Assembly: GCA_017475035.1 (NCBI GenBank)
Contig: JAFVGK010000094.1
Location: 1 to 46,029 of the forward strand
Length of the DNA: 46,029 nt
Direction: 5' to 3'
Origin: Blautia sp.
GTDB taxonomy: Bacteria > Bacillota > Clostridia > Lachnospirales > Lachnospiraceae
Below, piece by piece: positions 4,972 through 26,516 of this stretch. Position 1 is the stretch's first letter. Each line of letters opens with the position of its first letter. The notes below the pieces were generated by a model, which saw nothing but the letters and a program-made list of their open reading frames with translations, was not told the origin of the DNA and searched no databases. Position numbers and translations under genes: made by a program.

Positions 4972-5397
4972 TCATTCATCCTGAATCGAAATCCTTCGAT
5001 AGGAAAACCCTTTCTCCGGATCTTTCTCTATTGTAATATTCACACAATCGGAGGGCAGGATTTCGCGGATTCTCTGCGGCCATTCGATCAGGCATACGCC
5101 GTCTCCATAAAAATATTCATCAGCCCCGATCTCCTCCATCTCCTCCGGTTCTTCGATCCGATATACGTCAAAGTGATACAGCGGCAGGCGCCCGTCCGTA
5201 TATTCCTGTACGATGGTAAACGTAGGACTGTTTACATAATCGCAGACTCCAAGCCCTGCCGCAAATCCCTGTGCAAAAACAGTCTTACCCGCGCCGAGAT
5301 CGCCCTCCAGCGTATATACCGAGGAAGGCTTCGCCGACTCTGCCAGCCGTCTGCCCAGCGCAAACGTCTCCTCAGCCGAATATGTCTCAACCGTCAT
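4972..5397 (-). CDS. tsaE: tRNA threonylcarbamoyladenosine synthesis ATPase TsaE
   Basis: TsaE is the small ATPase that drives turnover of the TsaB-TsaD complex in t6A synthesis. The protein has a P-loop EGDLGAGKT (31-39), NSPTFTIVQEY, the HFDVYRIE motif and a C-terminal LIEWPQ. Starting at the ATG at 5397 gives 141 residues, close to the family norm, with GAGGGG 7 bases upstream. Longer in-frame starts (5418, 5550) are rejected because the promoter at 5435-5463 would put transcription start at about 5428 and they lack ribosome sites. First gene of the housekeeping operon. Confidence 0.94.
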   Translation of the reverse strand: MTVETYSAEETFALGRRLAESAKPSSVYTLEGDLGAGKTVFAQGFAAGLGVCDYVNSPTFTIVQEYTDGRLPLYHFDVYRIEEPEEMEEIGADEYFYGDGVCLIEWPQRIREILPSDCVNITIEKDPEKGFSYRRISIQDE

Positions 5398-5434
5398 CCC
5401 TGTCCCCTCACTTTCCATGGCAATCGTGTTCCCA

Positions 5435-5463
5435 AGTGTAATCAATTCAGACACAATTGTCAA
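5435..5463 (-). promoter_or_regulatory. promoter of the tsaE-tsaB-rimI-rnz-tsaD-ispD cluster
   Basis: Minus-strand -35 TTGACA (5458-5463), 17-base spacer, -10 TACACT (5435-5440), about 40 bases before the chosen tsaE start. Confidence 0.7.
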
Positions 5464-5561
5464 GGGTCCGATAAACGGCGCGGAAAACCTGGCCGATGCT
5501 TTCCGCCTGAGTGAATGCCGCATCAGCCCGGCAAGATAAGCGCCATCCATAAAGCCGTGCG

Positions 5562-8018
5562 TCAGGTAATCGGCAGAAAATCCGTAAGCTCCTTCAGGAT
5601 TGCCTCGGCGTCCGCCAGCGGCTTTACGTACCCCTCCAGCATTTTTGCCTTAGCGGCAAGCCCGCGCGACCTCGGACTGATAAAGATCCGGCATTTCTCC
5701 CTTCCGTTCTTTGCCTCCTGAATCAGATTCTGCGCGGCGGAATTTCCGTCAAACGCCAGCAGCACGGAAGGCTGACGCTTAAAAATCTCATACGCAAAGC
5801 TCTTGTAAAGTCCCATCCCGGAGCTTTCAATCGACACCAGGATACGGACGCCGGATTTTTGAAGCCGCATTTTCTGGCTCACGGTAATCCTGCTTGGCAC
5901 AATCGCATATACAGGGAACCGCCCCTGTGCGCGCTTTGCCAGATAGCCTTCCTGTCCGCACAGGGTATGTCCCACCACAAAGCAGAACCGTTCCGGATCC
6001 AGAAATTCCAGCATTCTGTCGATACAGCGTTTATCTTCCGGTTTTACAATCGTGTGATGCTGGGTATTGTTAAAGCTTCCGCCGGCGATCAGGATCGGGA
6101 AGCATTCCCTGGAAAGAGGCGCGATCTGCGCTGCCAGCACATTTTTTGCTTCTACCCTGCCGGAATCCTTCCAAAGATTGTCCAGGTCCAACGCGGGGTT
6201 TTCCATCCGTTCACGGTAATACCGTTCCACGTCCCCCCCGGCAAACGTCTCCTGAAAGCTCTTCATTTTTTCGTCAAAAGCCCAAAGCGCCTGCATCCGG
6301 ACAGCATCCTCCCCCTGACGCATGCGCTGAAGTTCATCTCCCGACAGCTCCAGAAGCTTTTCCAGGCTCAGCTCCTCCTCGATGGAATTTGTTCCATACA
6401 GAGCCCCTCCGTCCGTTCCCTGAACACATCTGACGCCCGCCTTCAGATACCGGCGAAGCGGGTGGTTTTCCAGACTGCTCAGGTTATTCAGACGGACATT
6501 TGAGCTGAGCTGGAATTCCAGAATCACGTCATTTCTTCGGATCTCTTCCAGAAGCGCTTTTCCTTTTGCGCTGCCAAGCTCACAGGTATACAGTCCATGG
6601 CCGATCCGGACCTGAGGCCTGTAGGGTCTCTCAGGCCGGACCGCTTCCGCCACGCAGCGGATGCTGTTCGCGACATTGTCCTTCAGACTGTCATTTTCAC
6701 CCGCATGAATCCGGATCACGAAGCCAGGAATCTCCTGGGCGATCTTCACCAGCTCACGGATCACCTCTTTCAGCTCCAGAATGTCATTGATCTCCTCTCC
6801 GATGATGTCACTCCCCGCAATGTACGGATCCGCGGCGATCACGGAAAGAATATTCAGGTTTTCCGCCAGATAATCCCCCGGCGTGATATTGTCCCGCACG
6901 ATGGTCAGCGGAATCCGCCGGATACCCGCAAGAAAGCGCAGGCAGACCCCCGTCTCCCTCGATACGGAAGGCATGATCTCATGAATCTCCCGCAGCTTTG
7001 CCGGAAACTCTCCGGGCTTCAGCAAAGCCGTATCCGTAATCTCCACATATTCGATCCCATGCTTCTGGTATTCCCTTGCAATCCATAACAGCAGGTCCTG
7101 ATACAGCGTGTTTTGACGATACGTATCCGACCGGCGGTCCTCCCGGATCTGCCCGGCATAATTCCGGACCTCCCGGTCTCCGATCAGCTCCAGGTTCAAC
7201 CCGCCCAGCAAATGTTTCGTCTGTACGCCTTTTGTAAAAACGTACCGGTAAAGATAAACCTTCTCAAGATCCGCAAATACAGCCTGCCCATCCTTCGGAA
7301 CTGTCAGGGAATTACGAATCCGCTCAATATTTTCCGCGGCAAATTCCGGATTTCCCAGAATCAGGTCCGCAAAATTAATAAAGGTCAGGTCGTCGATCCG
7401 CCGCTGCCTGTATTTCCCCGTCAGTGTCTGATCTGTCAAAGCCTCCTCTGCCCTGGAGCGTTCTGCCTCCAGGAAGGCAATCTGCCTGTCTGTGCAATGC
7501 AGCCGCAGTTTTTTGATATAATAATAAGGATACCGGATCTGATGCATGATCCCCAGCGCAATCAGAATATCCGGCGGAAGATTCCCGTTCATATGCGTAT
7601 GCAGGTCCGTGCGGAATTTCATCTCCCTCTGAATATAGGTCTTGACGATCGTCTTTTCTTCACCCAGACGATAATCCTTGGTCTGGCTCATCAGTGTTTT
7701 CGAGATCGCCGGTATGGAAGCCTTCTGCTCTACGCTTCCGTCCGGATAGATATTCGCGACCTTCGTATTCCCCAGCCTCAGAATGTACATTTTCCTGTTG
7801 TCGCCGTCATAATAGCAGGGAATCTCATTTTGAATCACCAGAAGCCCGTTTTCTCCCTGACTCGTCTCAAGACCGCACAGGCCTGCCAGATTACGGATCA
7901 GATTTCCCGTATGATGGTTCGGCGTTCGTATAATATGGAACAAGCGTTCTCCCTCCATATAGAGGTCCACAACAATATCCTTTTCCCGATCGAGATAAAA
8001 CCGCTGAAAAAAAACCAT
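5562..8018 (-). CDS. adenosine deaminase-like protein with C-terminal DprA/LOG-like (SLOG) domain
   Basis: 818-residue multidomain protein. Residues 1-135 are an unassigned N-terminal domain. A metal-dependent deaminase barrel follows: HTH (140-142) for the canonical HxH, HAGE (438-441), GHG (H474) and TDG (D536). These match the zinc ligands and catalytic Glu/His of adenosine deaminases. However, the second Asp of the usual DD pair is Gly, and the HxH to HAGE distance is about 296 residues against about 200 in ordinary ADA, implying a large insertion. Residues 641-784 look like a Rossmann-type SLOG domain: ILIAGGSFN, FVVGHTLCGQE, VYAIVPSRI, then SMGLYKS-to-IFISPRS resembling the RNRIIAGLS...VfavPg part of DprA. 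The start at 8018 follows GGGAGGAGG from a dispersed repeat, and an ATG at 8081 is inside that repeat. It appears monocistronic with its own promoter. The deaminase assignment is firm at motif level. Substrate and role are unknown. Confidence 0.75.
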   Translation of the reverse strand: MVFFQRFYLDREKDIVVDLYMEGERLFHIIRTPNHHTGNLIRNLAGLCGLETSQGENGLLVIQNEIPCYYDGDNRKMYILRLGNTKVANIYPDGSVEQKASIPAISKTLMSQTKDYRLGEEKTIVKTYIQREMKFRTDLHTHMNGNLPPDILIALGIMHQIRYPYYYIKKLRLHCTDRQIAFLEAERSRAEEALTDQTLTGKYRQRRIDDLTFINFADLILGNPEFAAENIERIRNSLTVPKDGQAVFADLEKVYLYRYVFTKGVQTKHLLGGLNLELIGDREVRNYAGQIREDRRSDTYRQNTLYQDLLLWIAREYQKHGIEYVEITDTALLKPGEFPAKLREIHEIMPSVSRETGVCLRFLAGIRRIPLTIVRDNITPGDYLAENLNILSVIAADPYIAGSDIIGEEINDILELKEVIRELVKIAQEIPGFVIRIHAGENDSLKDNVANSIRCVAEAVRPERPYRPQVRIGHGLYTCELGSAKGKALLEEIRRNDVILEFQLSSNVRLNNLSSLENHPLRRYLKAGVRCVQGTDGGALYGTNSIEEELSLEKLLELSGDELQRMRQGEDAVRMQALWAFDEKMKSFQETFAGGDVERYYRERMENPALDLDNLWKDSGRVEAKNVLAAQIAPLSRECFPILIAGGSFNNTQHHTIVKPEDKRCIDRMLEFLDPERFCFVVGHTLCGQEGYLAKRAQGRFPVYAIVPSRITVSQKMRLQKSGVRILVSIESSGMGLYKSFAYEIFKRQPSVLLAFDGNSAAQNLIQEAKNGREKCRIFISPRSRGLAAKAKMLEGYVKPLADAEAILKELTDFLPIT

Positions 8019-8022
8019 AGCT

Positions 8023-8081
8023 GCCTCCTCCCAAATCGCAGTTTGATTCCATGTTTTCAGATGACGATTTTGCTTCTTCAC
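8023..8081 (-). repeat. dispersed Shine-Dalgarno-bearing repeat, copy B (short)
   Basis: Short copy lacking the internal hairpin half. On the minus strand it ends in GGGAGGAGG, 5 bases before the ATG at 8018. Compare copies A, C, D and F. Confidence 0.7.
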
Positions 8082-20208: not shown

Positions 20209-23200
20209 TTATTCCAAAAGTGCCATCAGATCTTCCTGGTTCAGCGTTCCGCTGGAAATTCCTTCTCCGCTGAGGATATCATCGGCCAGCTTTTGTTTAT
20301 CCTCCTGCATCTGGATGATCCTTTCCTCGATCGTCCCTTTCGTCACGAGCTTATACACGGTAACCACGTTTACCTGTCCGATCCGGTGCGCCCTGTCTGT
20401 CGCCTGATTCTCAACGGCAATATTCCACCAGGGATCATAATGAATCACCACGTCCGCCCCGACCAGGTTTAATCCGGTGCCGCCTGCTCTTAAGGAAATC
20501 AGGAAAACCGGCGTCTCATCTTCATTAAAAGCCTTCACCAGCGTCAGCCGCCGTTCCTTCGGCGTAGAACCGGTAATGGTATAAAACGGAATATGCTCCT
20601 TTTCCAGATCCTTTGCCAGAAGATCCAGCATCGAAGTAAACTGGGAGAAAATCAAAGCCTTGTGGCCTCCGTCGGCAAGATTTCTCACCAGCTCCATGCA
20701 CATCTCACGTTTCGCCGACTGTCCCTTAAAGTCTTCGAAGCACAGATTCGGATCACAGCAGATCTGGCGCAGCTTCATCAGTTCCGCCAGAAACTCCAGC
20801 TTCATGCGGCGGAAGTCCGTTTCCGACTTGCCCGCAAACTTGCTCTTCATTTTCACCACCTGGCCGTCATACAGGTTCTGCTGCTTCACATCCATCTGGG
20901 CAAAGCGCAGCTCCACCAGCTTATCCGGCAGGTCCTTCAGCACATCCCGTTTCAGCCTGCGCAGGATAAAGGGCGTAACCATGCGCTGCAGCTCCATCTG
21001 CGCCTCTTCCTTCTGATATTTCACGATAGGTAATTCATAATTATTCCGGAAGGTATCATAATCATAGAGGAATCCCGGCATAAGATAATCAAAAATACTC
21101 CAAAGCTCAGAAAGCCGGTTTTCAATCGGGGTACCGGTGAGAGCATACTTCGTCCTGGCCTGAATCAGTTTCACGGACTTCGCCGCGGCAGTATCATGGT
21201 TTTTGATATACTGCGCTTCATCAATTACCTGAAAACGGAACTGTTTTCCCTCATAATCCGCAATGTCTCTCTTCAGCAGGTCATAGGAAGTCACAAGAAC
21301 ATCAGCCTGACGATAAATCGCCAGCTTCTCTCTCCTGTCGCCCTGAGTCCCGGAAAGCAGCAGGACCTTCAGCTCCGGAGCGAAACGGCGCAGCTCCTCT
21401 CCCCAGTTAAATACGAGGGAAGCCGGGCAGATGATCAGGGACGGAAAATGCTCTTCAGAAAATTCTTTTTCCCTGTGCTTCACCGAAAGCATGACCGTAA
21501 TCACCTGCAGCGTCTTTCCCAGACCCATCTCATCCGCAAGAATACCGCCAAAATTATAGTGATCCAGGGTACACAGCCATTGAAAGCCCGTCTCCTGATA
21601 TTTTCTGAGAACACCCTTCAGTTCTTCGGGAATCTCAAAATCAGCGTCCTCCACTGTCTTGAATTCCTTGATCAGCTTACGGAAATGAACATCCCGGTTC
21701 AGATACACATCCTTTACCGATTCCAGCATCTTGTCCAGATACAAAGCGCGGTAGGCAGGAATCGACATCTTGCCCTTAACAAATTCCTGTACGGAAACGC
21801 CCAGCACATCCAGCATCTGGGCCAGCTGGGCAATCGTATCCTGGGCGTCCAGCCGCAGAAAGTCCCCGTTCCGCAGCCGGACAAAACGCCGTTTTTCCCT
21901 GTACTGGAACAGAATCTCCAGCAGCTCCTCCTGGCTTAAATCCTCCGAAAGAATCGAAAGATTCATAATCCCGGAAGAAACCGAAACGCCGATGTCGAAT
22001 TTCACGGATTTGCGCACGCGAAGACGCTTGAAGCGTTCTGTCGCCCGCACTTCACACACCTCCATCAGCTCGCCGATCCCATAGCTCAAAAAGGCGAAGA
22101 CCTGCTCTTCGTCCCTGGTTCCCGACAGAAGGTGAAGATCCCGGTCATAATTCGTCAGATATTTGCAGATTACCCGCAGGACGTTTCCTTCCGCCTCCTG
22201 ATCCCGGTAGGATGCCACACCGCTTCCGATCCGGTCCTGCTCCTGATCCAAAAGATCCGTCAGGGAAAAAATCTGCGGCCCGTAGGTCACCTCTGCGCGG
22301 CAGATCACCGTATCCTTCATATAATCCAGATAACACAGAAAAGTCGGCTCAGGCGGCAGATACCGGGCAATCTCTTCGATATCATACTCCACGATATCCG
22401 CAATTTCCCTTAACTGCGGCAATGTTTTATAATAAAAATCAGACAGATGGTTCCTGCCGATACACATGCGCACATACCCGCCATGTCCGGCCTGAACCAG
22501 CGGCTCCAGCGCCTTGAACCGCTCATGGGGAACCCGGTTGAAATAGCATCCTTTTTTATCCTGAGAAAAATAATACGCGCTGCGGCGTCCTTCAATCATC
22601 TCAGGCAGATCTCCGGTAATCACAATTCCCTGGAAATATCCCGTTTTCTCATCCAGATCCCTGGCAATCTCCAGCTTCGGCTGGAAATCCTGATCCCGGA
22701 ACAGATAACTGCTTTTCTCTTTACTGATCGCGTCCCGAACGGTTACCTCCAGGCTTTTCCCGTTCATAAGCTCAAAGAACCGGTCCAGACGTGAGCCCAG
22801 AAGCTGCACCGAGCTTTTCATCTCGGGAAGGGTCACGGGCTGATAATAGCTTCCGCCATATAAATTCCTGAATCTCTCGTTGATCTCCCGGTCTTCTTCA
22901 GCGATCTCCTCCAGGAAAGAAAAAACGGAAAGGGAGTCAGGATCAAGACTTTCCCTGCTCAAAGAAAATACGGTATTTTTCCCAAAGGTTTCCTTCTTAC
23001 CCTCCCGGATTTTCTGTATGATATCCCCCAGCATTTTTATTTTATAGAATTTCCCGCCCTGTCCGATCCGGAAAGAGGCAGAAATGCTGTTATCATGTTC
23101 AACCTCCAGGGAAGGAACGATGCTCAGAAGCTGCGGCGCATCCGTCGCCACGAGCGAAAGCGCTGCTTTCGGACTGTAAAGCATATGGTTCAGGAGCGCC

Positions 23201-23826
23201 ATACCCGAACGGTTCGTCGCATCCCCTATATTGTTGTCCTCCAGATATTCCTGAAGCAGAAGTATCGCCGCTGCCTGATGATGGCAGATCGTATGCTTCA
23301 GCGTCGAATTCTTATCCTGCACCGAATAACAGCTGTATTTGGTACAGGCGCTGTAGACGATTTTGTGGGAAGTGAAACGGATCCGCACCTGCCATCCTTC
23401 AAAATAAGAACGGCTTACGCTCAGCAATCTCGCCTCTCCCATCTGCCTCTCGGATCCGACATCCTCTTCAAAGCCCAGGGAGACCTCCATCGGCAGGCAC
23501 TCCTGATTCCGTATCAGTTCCCGGGCCTTCTTAATAGTATCCAACGGTACATTGAGTCCCTTAAAAAATCCCTCTGACTGAAAATATCGATATTCCTCTG
23601 CCGGAAAAAGCGCGGCATTCTCTTCACGAAAAGCCTGTGCGATCTGTTCATGTTCCTGTGTAATCAGCTCATCCAAGGTATCAGACGTTTCCCGGTCCGG
23701 GTCATCCGGATCCCGGGGCCTTGCGATCACCTCCGTCCCGTTCTCTGTCAGAGAAATCACTTCCTGTTCCGTGCTGTCTTCCGCCTGCATCGTCATATGT
23801 TCATCTTTTCTGTCATCAGCCGACAC
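20209..23826 (-). CDS. SNF2-family DEAD/DEAH helicase
   Basis: About 1205-residue SWI2/SNF2 ATPase. The C-terminal half has all helicase motifs: ADEMGLGKTLQ (I), CPASLVFNW (Ia), DEAQYIKN (II), LTGTPIENR (III), RAGGTGLNLVGAD (V) and QATDRAHRIGQ (VI). The N-terminal half has a region like a SWIM zinc finger (Cx4C...ICHH), with the usual CxC pair changed to Cx4C. Such proteins remodel nucleic-acid-protein complexes, but the cellular role in bacteria is poorly known. A GTG start at 23826 follows AGGAAAGGAG by 8 bases. The in-frame ATG at 23847 lacks a ribosome site. It begins about 50 bases after the secreted LRR gene on the same strand and may be co-transcribed with it. Confidence 0.9.
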   Translation of the reverse strand: MSADDRKDEHMTMQAEDSTEQEVISLTENGTEVIARPRDPDDPDRETSDTLDELITQEHEQIAQAFREENAALFPAEEYRYFQSEGFFKGLNVPLDTIKKARELIRNQECLPMEVSLGFEEDVGSERQMGEARLLSVSRSYFEGWQVRIRFTSHKIVYSACTKYSCYSVQDKNSTLKHTICHHQAAAILLLQEYLEDNNIGDATNRSGMALLNHMLYSPKAALSLVATDAPQLLSIVPSLEVEHDNSISASFRIGQGGKFYKIKMLGDIIQKIREGKKETFGKNTVFSLSRESLDPDSLSVFSFLEEIAEEDREINERFRNLYGGSYYQPVTLPEMKSSVQLLGSRLDRFFELMNGKSLEVTVRDAISKEKSSYLFRDQDFQPKLEIARDLDEKTGYFQGIVITGDLPEMIEGRRSAYYFSQDKKGCYFNRVPHERFKALEPLVQAGHGGYVRMCIGRNHLSDFYYKTLPQLREIADIVEYDIEEIARYLPPEPTFLCYLDYMKDTVICRAEVTYGPQIFSLTDLLDQEQDRIGSGVASYRDQEAEGNVLRVICKYLTNYDRDLHLLSGTRDEEQVFAFLSYGIGELMEVCEVRATERFKRLRVRKSVKFDIGVSVSSGIMNLSILSEDLSQEELLEILFQYREKRRFVRLRNGDFLRLDAQDTIAQLAQMLDVLGVSVQEFVKGKMSIPAYRALYLDKMLESVKDVYLNRDVHFRKLIKEFKTVEDADFEIPEELKGVLRKYQETGFQWLCTLDHYNFGGILADEMGLGKTLQVITVMLSVKHREKEFSEEHFPSLIICPASLVFNWGEELRRFAPELKVLLLSGTQGDRREKLAIYRQADVLVTSYDLLKRDIADYEGKQFRFQVIDEAQYIKNHDTAAAKSVKLIQARTKYALTGTPIENRLSELWSIFDYLMPGFLYDYDTFRNNYELPIVKYQKEEAQMELQRMVTPFILRRLKRDVLKDLPDKLVELRFAQMDVKQQNLYDGQVVKMKSKFAGKSETDFRRMKLEFLAELMKLRQICCDPNLCFEDFKGQSAKREMCMELVRNLADGGHKALIFSQFTSMLDLLAKDLEKEHIPFYTITGSTPKERRLTLVKAFNEDETPVFLISLRAGGTGLNLVGADVVIHYDPWWNIAVENQATDRAHRIGQVNVVTVYKLVTKGTIEERIIQMQEDKQKLADDILSGEGISSGTLNQEDLMALLE

Positions 23827-23876
23827 CCTGCCGTCTCCTTTCCTCATAGGGAAGCTGTGAAAAACAGCCTGTTTTT

Positions 23877-26516
23877 TCAGAATCCCGCAAAGCCTGCTTT
23901 CTTATTCAGTCCTCTGGCCCGGAAAAGCTTCCGATAAGCCTCCAGCTTTGTCTTCGGCACGCTGACTGCCATCTTTGCATAGGTATTCTTAAAAATACCG
24001 GTTCCCAGACTGCCGTCTGTCAGCTTCGCTGTCTTTACCGTCAGGGTCTTCAGGCCGACACAGCCGGCAAAAGCCCCTGCGCCGATTTTCTTCACCTTTT
24101 TCGGCAGCGTGACTGTGCCCAGGGATACACAGCCGTTAAAAGCGTTTTTGCCGATGGAAACGAGGCCGGATCCCAGAGACACTGTTTTCAGATTTACACA
24201 GTTGGAAAATGCGGCTTTCCCTATCGTTGTCACAGTCCTGGCAACTGTCACCTTCGTGATCTTGCTGTTGGCGCGAAATGCGCCTGCCGCCACCGACGTC
24301 ACCTGATATGTAATCTTTTTCCGTTTCACGGCTGCCGGGATCGCCGCAGTACCTTTCGCGCTGCCGGCAGGACTTACATAAGCAACGGCCGGATTTGAGG
24401 GATCCGAGTCTGTCACCCGGTATGAGGCTCCGGCGCTGTCCTGAAAAACGGTTCCCACCGCTGCCGGGAGATCCGCAGGAGAAGGCGCAGCTGTCACCGG
24501 AACCGCTTTTACCGTAATCCCGGCGTTCCCGCTATACTTATTAAACCCGGCGTTCAGAGTAACCAGGCAGCAGATGTACTTCCCGTCCAGCCAGGTATCC
24601 TTCGGAACCAGCTGCACGCTGTCCGTCTCTTCTCCGGAAACATCCGCATGCGTCTTCACCGTACTCCAGGACCACTTGCTTCCGCCCGCCACATCAGATA
24701 TCCACCAATGATAAGCATTGGCTCCCTTACATTTCGTCCGGAAGGTCAGCTTTCCCAAAACATAAGCGCTGTCATCGGCAGGCTGTTCCTCAAAGCAGTC
24801 GTTGACTGTCATTTTCGCAAAATACGACCTGACCACCTTTCCGTCCGCGCCCTTGACATCGCAGGCTATATATTTTCCGTTCAGCCACCTATCTTTCGGA
24901 ATCAGGGTGATCCTGGACGTATTTCTTCCGGAAACAAGCGCATGTCCCGAAACAGAATCGGTGCCGGTCCAGGAATATGCCTGAGAGCCGGTTCCGTTAT
25001 TGTCATACACATACCAGGCGTAGCTTTCTGCATTCCCTGCACTCACCTCATAGGTAAAGGACTCTCCTACTGATCCGGTCTGACTGACGGGCTGCGTGGT
25101 GATGCTGGCATGTAATGGCTGTACATAAATATAATTGCTGTAAAGTACCCCTGTATGGTTTCTCAGCGTCACCGCAACCCTGAGATAACAGCCGTTATCC
25201 TGCTTCACAGTCTTATAGGTACTGCTGAAAGCCCCTGTAATCGCCACCCAGCTTCCCGTATTATTATCTTTTTTTGTCCATCTTTGCCAGACATAGCTTC
25301 TCGTACCTGCAGGAAGGCCTGTCGTGTCAGCCGACAGGACATCCCCCACAACATAGGTCTTATTCTGCAGCTCTACTTTCCAGGAACCGGTCAGCTTCTG
25401 GCCGATCATAACGTTATTTGCGTCCGCCCCGGAGGACGTGCGGATATTATGGGTGCTGACCACTCCTCCGGAGGGCGTCAGGATCTGAAGGGGAGAAGAA
25501 ACCGAGACCGTGCCGTTTTTTGCCCACACAGCGTTCTTCTGTCCTTTGATGCCGGCTCCTCCTGAAAAAAAAGTAATGTTTCCGCAGGCATAGATTCCTT
25601 CTTTTAAAGAGCTGGTTACCACCGCGCTCCCATGAATCCATACATCTCCTTCACAGTAAATCCCATAGGAATCCGCGCTTACCTGATCCAGATTTCCCTG
25701 TGACCCGACATCAACCAGAGTCTTTGCCGACAGCCCGATATAGCCGGTGACGGATACCTCTCCCCCGATCAGAATGCTGCCGTTATCAGCCAGCATTCCC
25801 TGTCTGCCGGAACCTGTTGCCTTGACTTTCACTGTCGCTTCCCGGATGCTGATCGTACCGTTTTTTGCACGGATCGGAAGATATCCTTCCACCGTCGTGC
25901 TGCCTCCGGTGATATAAATATCTTCATTGGCATAAAGCACAGCACCGCCTTTGCCGGCATTCGATGCCGTCACATTCCCGTTCTGCAATGTGATCTTCTT
26001 ATACGCCTCAATCGCGGAACCGGTGACGGACGAGGCACTGACGGAACCGCCCTGAACCAGAATATTTCCTCCGCTGGAGCGAATCCCGACCGCGAAGCCG
26101 ACAGAGCTTAAACTGCCTCCGCTTTTTACCGTAATATTCCCGGAGGTCAGGACGCCATAATCGGCCTCGCTGACAGTACCCTGCTGGACGGACACCTCAG
26201 CGCTGACCGTCAGCTCCTTCACGCAGATCGGGATCGTCTTATCTCTCGAGAATAACATCAGAGAACCTTTTGTCCCGCTTTTTTGCATGATGGCAAGACT
26301 ATAGTTCTTTCCCGTGATGGAGTTGATTCTCCTGACGGTCGTATTGACAATCAGTGTCGTATCACCTGTCAGATTCAGATTGACTCCATCACTCAGATAA
26401 CTGGTATACACTGTCCCCTCAATATTCCTCGTCTCCGCATTCACCGGAGTCCGGGGCAGAATCAAAATCCCAAAAATCAGGCACAAAAAGGCTATACAAA
26501 ACTTTTGAAGCTTCAT
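23877..26516 (-). CDS. secreted surface protein: beta-helix-like region, Ig-like domains and BspA-type leucine-rich repeats
   Basis: 879-residue secreted protein with signal peptide (about 1-27, ending TPVNA). Residues of about 60-350 are short repeating Gly/Ser/Val-rich units (GNITVKSGG, GNILVQGG, DIYITGGS, GSILIGG) that suggest a right-handed beta-helix. Two or three Ig-like modules follow (about 380-690, with ITTQPVSQTGSVGESFTY). The C-terminus (about 740-850) has at least three LRR_5 units (AFSNCVNLKTVSLGSGL, AFNGCVSLGTVTLPKKV, AFAGCVGLKTLTV). No LPXTG or membrane anchor is seen, so it is probably released or bound non-covalently. Similar BspA-like proteins act in adhesion. Ribosome site AGGAGGAG comes from repeat copy D. 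Confidence 0.82.
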   Translation of the reverse strand: MKLQKFCIAFLCLIFGILILPRTPVNAETRNIEGTVYTSYLSDGVNLNLTGDTTLIVNTTVRRINSITGKNYSLAIMQKSGTKGSLMLFSRDKTIPICVKELTVSAEVSVQQGTVSEADYGVLTSGNITVKSGGSLSSVGFAVGIRSSGGNILVQGGSVSASSVTGSAIEAYKKITLQNGNVTASNAGKGGAVLYANEDIYITGGSTTVEGYLPIRAKNGTISIREATVKVKATGSGRQGMLADNGSILIGGEVSVTGYIGLSAKTLVDVGSQGNLDQVSADSYGIYCEGDVWIHGSAVVTSSLKEGIYACGNITFFSGGAGIKGQKNAVWAKNGTVSVSSPLQILTPSGGVVSTHNIRTSSGADANNVMIGQKLTGSWKVELQNKTYVVGDVLSADTTGLPAGTRSYVWQRWTKKDNNTGSWVAITGAFSSTYKTVKQDNGCYLRVAVTLRNHTGVLYSNYIYVQPLHASITTQPVSQTGSVGESFTYEVSAGNAESYAWYVYDNNGTGSQAYSWTGTDSVSGHALVSGRNTSRITLIPKDRWLNGKYIACDVKGADGKVVRSYFAKMTVNDCFEEQPADDSAYVLGKLTFRTKCKGANAYHWWISDVAGGSKWSWSTVKTHADVSGEETDSVQLVPKDTWLDGKYICCLVTLNAGFNKYSGNAGITVKAVPVTAAPSPADLPAAVGTVFQDSAGASYRVTDSDPSNPAVAYVSPAGSAKGTAAIPAAVKRKKITYQVTSVAAGAFRANSKITKVTVARTVTTIGKAAFSNCVNLKTVSLGSGLVSIGKNAFNGCVSLGTVTLPKKVKKIGAGAFAGCVGLKTLTVKTAKLTDGSLGTGIFKNTYAKMAVSVPKTKLEAYRKLFRARGLNKKAGFAGF

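Follow-up and report, generated by a model that had tools for sequence, protein, structure and literature searches.

We analysed a 46,029-nucleotide stretch of DNA (hereafter the window; contig JAFVGK010000094.1 of Blautia sp., assembly GCA_017475035.1), in which one minus-strand gene at 5562..8018 encodes an N-terminal domain of no known family, an adenosine deaminase (ADA)-type barrel and a C-terminal SLOG-like domain. It is quite possible, and we tentatively predict, that this one protein deaminates a phosphorylated adenine nucleotide (ATP, ADP or AMP, or a deoxy form) under the control of a ligand, a function that we infer from sequence, predicted structure and distribution. Such a three-part enzyme of gut bacteria may be a self-contained switch that alters the adenine nucleotides of the cell on a signal. 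Bacteria under attack can halt their growth by deaminating ATP to inosine triphosphate (ITP), a recently discovered mechanism seen in RADAR and in CRISPR Cad1. A one-gene version with a different sensor would, if real, either carry this mechanism beyond CRISPR and RADAR or bring to light a regulated deaminase of adenine nucleotides in the purine control of bacteria. The original prediction for this gene, a ligand-gated deaminase for signalling, stress or phage defence, or else a lineage-specific purine enzyme, is partly supported here: its anatomy, its fold and its departure from ordinary ADA stood, the defence role found no support in the context, and the parallel to RADAR proved weaker.

The reading frame is complete, with the start ATG at 8018 and the stop codon ending at 5562 (818 residues plus stop, according to the list of open reading frames (ORFs) of the window), and the predicted ORF is therefore confirmed as real and placed on the minus strand, which had not been stated before. 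Since 92 relatives are 50-76% identical to the window protein and nearly all of full length, a chance ORF is ruled out. A Shine-Dalgarno-like GGGAGGAGG (8024..8032, minus strand), 6-14 nucleotides ahead of the ATG, makes a good ribosome-binding site. A plus-strand reading of 5562..8018 was rejected owing to stops in frame 1 of that strand. For the alignment, removal of redundancy at 90% identity reduced the 92 relatives and the window protein to 77 sequences, and leaving out the contig-cut L038 gave 76 rows, 39 of which make up alignments A3 and A4; L052, L056, L058 and L061 (ORF without the first 16-20 residues), L113 (which contains L005) and duplicates of the window were dropped.

The ADA-type metallo-dependent barrel covers residues about 133-600 (6219..7622, minus strand), as judged from Pfam, Foldseek and the AlphaFold model. 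The Pfam family A_deaminase (PF00962) was matched with E 3.8e-15 and 56.2 bits (cut-off 27), most strongly over residues 313-577, and Amidohydro_1 was matched below its cut-off (0.047). The four ADA motifs that had been recognised in the sequence were all recovered on the minus strand: HTH with H140 and H142 (7593..7601), followed by N144 at the place of mouse-ADA D19; HAGE (6696..6707), in which by analogy H438 would be a metal ligand and E441 catalytic; GHG with H474 (6594..6602); and TDG (6408..6416), in which D536 would by analogy be a metal ligand and G537 stands at the place of mouse-ADA D296. H140, H142, H438, E441, H474 and D536, i.e., the presumed metal and catalytic residues, are invariant in 76/76 aligned relatives. 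The reported loss of the second Asp of the DD pair proved to be general as well, the D296 position being Gly in 76/76 sequences, and the D19 position is Asn in 73/76 and Ser in 3/76. Moreover, H142 and H438 are 296 residues apart, about 100 more than H17 and H214 of mouse ADA, and by this spacing the proposed insert of about 100 residues between HxH and HAGE is real. The extra segment comprises residues about 200-300 (approximately 7119..7421, minus strand; boundaries drawn by eye) and contains a conserved KDGQAVF...EKVYLYRYVFTKG block.

AlphaFold, run on the whole protein with the 76-row alignment, gave a mean predicted local distance difference test score (pLDDT) of 87.6 and a predicted TM score of 0.80. 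When this model was compared with the PDB by Foldseek, ADA enzymes ranked first (6n9m, E 5.3e-10), Cad1 chains appeared from rank 41 (9c6f, E 2.7e-7), and RdrB was not among the best 50 of the 78 matches at E ≤ 0.001. The 50 fold rows listed for the whole model were adenosine, adenine, AMP or N6-methyl-AMP deaminases, Cad1-type proteins, a cog1816 amidohydrolase (two chains) and an engineered hydrolase. The unusual change in the substrate pocket, G537, might suggest that the barrel has become some other amidohydrolase-type hydrolase and no longer deaminates 6-aminopurines, but with the HAGE glutamate, the GHG histidine and all metal ligands kept in 76/76, and with adenine-type deaminases and Cad1-type proteins filling these fold rows, apart from the two hydrolases just named, we consider this scarcely credible. 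At the same time, the NCBIfam equivalogs for adenosine deaminase were missed widely (TIGR01430, 43.7 against 216.55 bits; PRK09358, 44 against 459 bits), which supports a departure from ordinary ADA, so that the protein does not appear as the ordinary purine-salvage deaminase of the family.

The changed positions provide the argument for the substrate. Fused (Cad1) and oversized (RdrB) ADA proteins deaminate ATP in phage defence, according to the passages on Cad1 and RADAR in PMC11645235, PMC12669630 and PMC9994260. In the passages of PMC12669630, D296 of mouse ADA is described as catalytic and D19 as an adenosine-binding residue, and TaqCad1, which has Asn549 and Gly264 at those positions, converts ATP to ITP without deaminating adenosine. 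By analogy with TaqCad1, the changes at the D19 and D296 positions of the window family support, but do not prove, a non-adenosine and probably phosphorylated substrate.

The C-terminal domain (residues 622-806; 5601..6155, minus strand) was modelled alone by AlphaFold2 with a pLDDT of 92.7. In the Foldseek search of the PDB, the first 26 of the 50 rows listed were DprA, molybdenum cofactor (Moco)-carrier, LOG/YvdD-type or TRPM chains, several of each, with E from 1.1e-3 to 8.5e-3, probability 0.99-1.00 and TM-query 0.53-0.62, and among them were AMP-bound LOG (5zbk) and a TRPM2 entry with ADP-ribose. We take these chains to be SLOG-superfamily folds, the aligned part of the TRPM chains not being visible in the output; the SLOG network was reportedly defined in a 2015 paper. 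Unrelated Rossmann-like folds also occurred in the lower rows, at lower TM, and three of the 50 rows from a viral fold library were named SLOG or DprA. The predicted structure and its fold matches thus uphold the Rossmann-type SLOG domain of the original prediction. Its membership in SLOG rests on the fold because sequence profiles give no support, and of the two families for which a profile search had been suggested, only ADA was recovered (PF00962 above its cut-off).

Three stretches of this domain, all on the minus strand, deserve mention. The strand-1 loop GGSFN (residues 646-650; 6069..6083) is a candidate ligand loop in the alignment, GMGLYKS (residues 734-740; 5799..5819) a candidate ligand pocket, and DGNSAAQNLIQEA (residues 757-769; 5712..5750) lies, as judged by eye, at the place of the LOG motif PGGxGTxxE, itself absent. 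Invariant in 76/76 sequences are G736, Y738, K739 and S740 of the candidate pocket, and E744, G758, N759, N764, Q767, E768 and N771. PGGxGTxxE is the motif of LOG phosphoribohydrolases, and its PGGxGT part was found in 0/92 near-full-length sequences. This absence, together with the invariant loop residues, favours a binding site over a LOG-type hydrolase site. The window family shares the SLOG fold with the PpnN/LOG nucleosidases and differs from them in lacking this motif and in being fused to an ADA barrel. A bifunctional enzyme of purine-nucleotide breakdown, in which deamination by the barrel would be paired with a SLOG domain that splits the N-glycosidic bond as LOG and PpnN do, would agree with the LOG-type chains among the fold matches (5zbk, 1t35 and YgdH 9us2) and with the prediction, in the passages of PMC7159879, that SLOG-type folds release bases from nucleotides and thereby make signals. 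With PGGxGT missing in 92/92 and Leu, by eye, at the place of the LOG glutamate, such an enzyme seems to us very improbable.

Residues 1-132 (7623..8018, minus strand) form a beta-rich domain with no Pfam match and unlike any profile searched, and the N-terminal domain accordingly keeps the unassigned status that it had been given. When the N-terminal and C-terminal domains were searched singly in 196 genomes, each was found in 21 genomes, in frames of about 820 residues or in shorter, seemingly contig-cut frames and in no other architecture; in these genomes both occur only in the fusion. The N-terminal domain is well conserved: the mean frequency of the major residue was 0.76 in it, 0.71 in the barrel and 0.62 in the SLOG domain. 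The anatomy of N-terminal domain, ADA-type barrel and SLOG-type C-terminus is supported as a whole.

Among known systems, Cad1/CAAD (CARF-ADA, type III CRISPR) is similar in that a ligand-sensing Rossmann-type domain is fused to an ADA barrel and both adenosine-gripping positions are changed (Gly264 and Asn549 in TaqCad1; Asn/Ser144 and Gly537 in the window family). It differs in that the window protein lacks CARF, has a C-terminal, SLOG-like sensor and a unique N-terminal domain, and matches the CARF_ADA profile weakly; this match, the only one of the protein in PADLOC, had E 2.9e-5 and covered barrel residues 309-539 only. No type III CRISPR system was noticed among the window ORFs or the recurrent neighbours, the rest of the genome not having been searched for cas genes. 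In layout Cad1 stands closer than RdrB, yet the window protein is not a Cad1. With RdrB, as described in the passages available, it shares a length of about 800-850 residues, an extension of about 140-150 residues before HxH and a long insert (H154-H498 in RdrB, H142-H438 here). It has no match to the RdrB model and no RdrA, and it carries a SLOG domain, of which those passages on RdrB mention no counterpart. The RdrB model NF041744 was absent from the 10 families listed for the window protein at E ≤ 10, and a search of its own genome with this model was negative, a result that is weak by itself as the model matched in no control genome. Of 299 genomes searched for RdrB relatives with which to build a tree, none exceeded the cut-off and 6 gave short weak matches. 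No RdrA ATPase was seen by eye among the window ORFs, nor as a recurrent neighbour in 98 loci. Of the RADAR parallel drawn earlier, length and insert position thus hold, whereas an NF041744 match and RdrA are missing; the statement that no RdrA-like or mobile gene adjoins the fusion gene agrees with the same two inspections.

ThsA of Thoeris (SIR2-SLOG) also has a SLOG domain fused to a nucleotide-consuming enzyme, and by analogy gating is proposed here; its effector is a SIR2 NADase and its signal comes from ThsB, of which none is linked to the genes of the window family. The SLOG domain of ThsA is a ligand sensor in defence, as stated in the passages of PMC12948488, which covers ThsA and Kongming. 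Canonical ADA (PF00962, TIGR01430) shares the fold, HxH, HAGE, GHG and the metal Asp, and the window family departs from it in the D19 and D296 positions, the insert, the two extra domains and the scores below equivalog level. No published SLOG-ADA fusion was found in a search that left the subscription literature largely outside, so that an earlier mention is possible.

The mechanism that we propose would resemble that of CRISPR Cad1, in which CARF senses and ADA deaminates ATP, with SLOG as the sensor. The SLOG domain would bind a nucleotide-derived ligand, binding would alter the barrel, possibly via an oligomer that uses the N-terminal domain, the barrel would turn an adenine nucleotide into its inosine form, and the shifted adenine pool would slow growth or reset purine metabolism. 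Several observations weigh against such a gated nucleotide deaminase. In fold and family searches alike, the barrel is matched best by ordinary ADA and not by Cad1. Two solved chains that align with the HxH region (E 0.013 and 0.015; one titled adenine deaminase) carry Glu instead of Asp at the D19 position, which implies that changes at this position are not peculiar to enzymes of nucleotides, and restoring both residues in TaqCad1 raised but did not rescue adenosine deamination, according to the passages of PMC12669630. The C-terminal domain had no fold match at E ≤ 0.001 in the PDB or the viral library and no support for SLOG from Pfam, PADLOC or the PDB sequence search, and scattered weak Pfam matches point elsewhere (Toprim_2 in 10/39 members, best 0.017; SIS in one, 0.0024). 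No ligand-making partner is linked to the gene, as no neighbour cluster occurs in more than 10/98 loci, and a ThsB-type TIR, being missing from 8/39 good-quality carrier genomes of one genus (g18), is not an obligatory partner.

A bolder and distinctly more doubtful form of the proposal is that the family represents an undescribed class of one-gene effectors of nucleotide signalling. Here SLOG would directly switch an ADA barrel by which (d)ATP or some other adenine nucleotide is turned into the inosine form, in a chromosomal stress or phage response of rumen and gut Firmicutes, with the N-terminal domain as an oligomerisation or trigger module. In that case SLOG and CARF domains would independently have come to control barrels of one ATP-deaminating kind.

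The distribution of the gene was assessed by genome scans with a profile of three relatives. The fusion was present in 39/392 genomes of the order, all within two families, and in 2/398 genomes across the phylum, the window's own being one of these. In genus g18 it was found in 58/79 genomes and in 39/47 of good quality and is thus near-fixed there; elsewhere its occurrence is patchy. No genome in the order or g18 scans had two complete copies; some drafts had contig-cut pieces only, and G461 had a further partial piece containing a stop. No relative was detected in plasmids, phages or viral_contigs, the last covered by pattern-limited scans. This distribution speaks against a mobile defence module of the classic kind, and an origin from a phage, plasmid or virus was rejected for lack of a match in any of these collections. 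The near-fixation in one genus and the lack of a linked partner make a general stress or metabolic nucleotide more likely as the ligand than the product of a neighbouring synthase. A scan of GTDB contigs was limited by two peptide patterns, and the best 80 of 157 relatives were kept; by their record titles these belong to Clostridia and Erysipelotrichia, with a ruminant host in 32 titles and an RUG label in 30 (62 together). We read the RUG label as denoting rumen genomes. The ruminant link is a lead only because these 80 are the relatives nearest to the window and the collection is unbalanced.

These data bear on the main rival to the gated nucleotide deaminase, namely that the protein serves purine salvage in the nucleic-acid-rich gut as an adenosine or AMP deaminase belonging to this lineage, with SLOG as ordinary allosteric control, which we regard as unlikely but serious. 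The absence of duplicate complete copies, the near-fixation in g18, the lack of plasmid, phage or viral matches and the 62 ruminant or RUG titles all speak for it. In addition, among the good g18 genomes a canonical-looking ADA was rarer with the fusion gene (3/39) than without it (4/8; Fisher P = 0.011; hand count), as though the two were interchangeable. Canonical-looking meant a PF00962 match at E < 1e-60, a cut chosen after the list was seen, and no correction for kinship or multiple testing was applied to this comparison or to that of TIR proteins described below. Against a metabolic role, both adenosine-gripping residues are changed in 76/76, the scores lie far below the equivalog cut-offs and the window genome has another ADA-like protein; moreover, the ADA complementarity ignores kinship and rests on 8 non-carriers, and 3/7 of the canonical matches (G318, G440 and G445) contain in-frame stops. 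The ADA-like protein of the window genome is shorter (L001; G000:C49:12338-12940; E 2.3e-34) and matches the profile from about position 109, and short proteins of this kind recur in g18.

In a quick tree, the sequences of g18 clustered together with genus g26 nested among them, which fits a longer residence in g18. Within the window's own genus, the three carriers did not form one clade (approximately unbiased test, P = 3.7e-7); this group was fixed by taxonomy but tested after the tree had been seen. Repeated acquisition is the simplest reading for the window's genus, with the caveat that contigs of metagenome-assembled genomes may be mis-binned.

That these three carriers are not one clade and have the gene at different places might also indicate an anti-phage effector, i.e., a gated (d)ATP deamination shaped by evolution for abortive infection in the manner of Cad1 and RADAR. 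The ATP deamination by Cad1 and RdrB and the role of ThsA SLOG as a defence ligand sensor, both taken from the passages cited above, point the same way, and ThsB-type TIR proteins were commoner in good g18 genomes with the fusion gene (31/39) than without it (3/8; P = 0.028, uncorrected; hand count). However, widely recurring neighbours are lacking, one genus carries the gene almost throughout and the plasmid, phage and viral collections gave no match, so that the defence role that had been proposed is not backed by the context, and we consider an anti-phage effector rather improbable. Among the 113 neighbour proteins scanned (of 115 selected from 309 clusters, two L055 proteins being left out), 19 PADLOC models were matched at 1e-5 or better, each by one protein and 8 of them DrmC models, counts for which there is no baseline; Pfam pointed to varied metabolism and transport in the 25 families shown of 146. 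ThsB-type TIR matches occurred in 51/79 g18 genomes, mostly inside frames of about 1000 residues and sometimes in tandem, and ThsB TIR was rejected as an obligate partner.

The 98 loci compared comprise 93 distinct ones, 31 of them with flanks of only about 1.5 kb, and neighbouring genes were named by eye unless a profile is cited. A conserved operon partner was rejected: the commonest neighbour cluster, a HAD-type hydrolase, occurred in 10/98 loci, or 7 distinct sequences after duplicate genomes were merged. A Cof-like HAD-type hydrolase lies directly upstream on the same strand in L014, L017, L018, L089, L093, L099, L102, L104 and L114, which apparently represent two lineages and three of which duplicate others. 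In L026 and L028 of genus g26, the gene 33-50 nucleotides upstream on the same strand encodes a NUDIX hydrolase that resembles ADP-ribose pyrophosphatase; this neighbour, found at such a distance in 2/98 loci, is a possible hint of an ADP-ribose-type ligand. Upstream of the fusion gene, folding gave z -0.52 and no conserved motif emerged, the best 9-mer being present in 6/91 upstream regions, compared with 3-4 after shuffling, a difference for which common descent can account. No riboswitch was detected, as Rfam at gathering scores gave three tRNAs only in the whole window.

As to the insertion site, the next gene downstream of the fusion gene and outside the enzyme is tsaE-like (4972..5550, minus strand; named by eye). 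Its longest ORF starts 11 nucleotides past the stop of the fusion gene, and homology to relatives starts near 5418; the strand order at the site is tsaE-tsaB-rimI-RNase Z-tsaD. In 18/19 of the same-genus loci compared (24 relatives with a tsaE match), a peptidyl-prolyl isomerase adjoins tsaE on the side where the window has the fusion gene, and this isomerase has no match in the window. The other two carriers of the genus, G002 and G003 (L141 and L124), also have the isomerase beside tsaE and bear their fusion gene on other contigs. Elsewhere in the window, a minus-strand ORF at 20209-23847 encodes, as judged by eye, a 1212-residue SNF2-type helicase and lies beside an ORF for an 879-residue repeat-rich secreted protein at 23877-26516.

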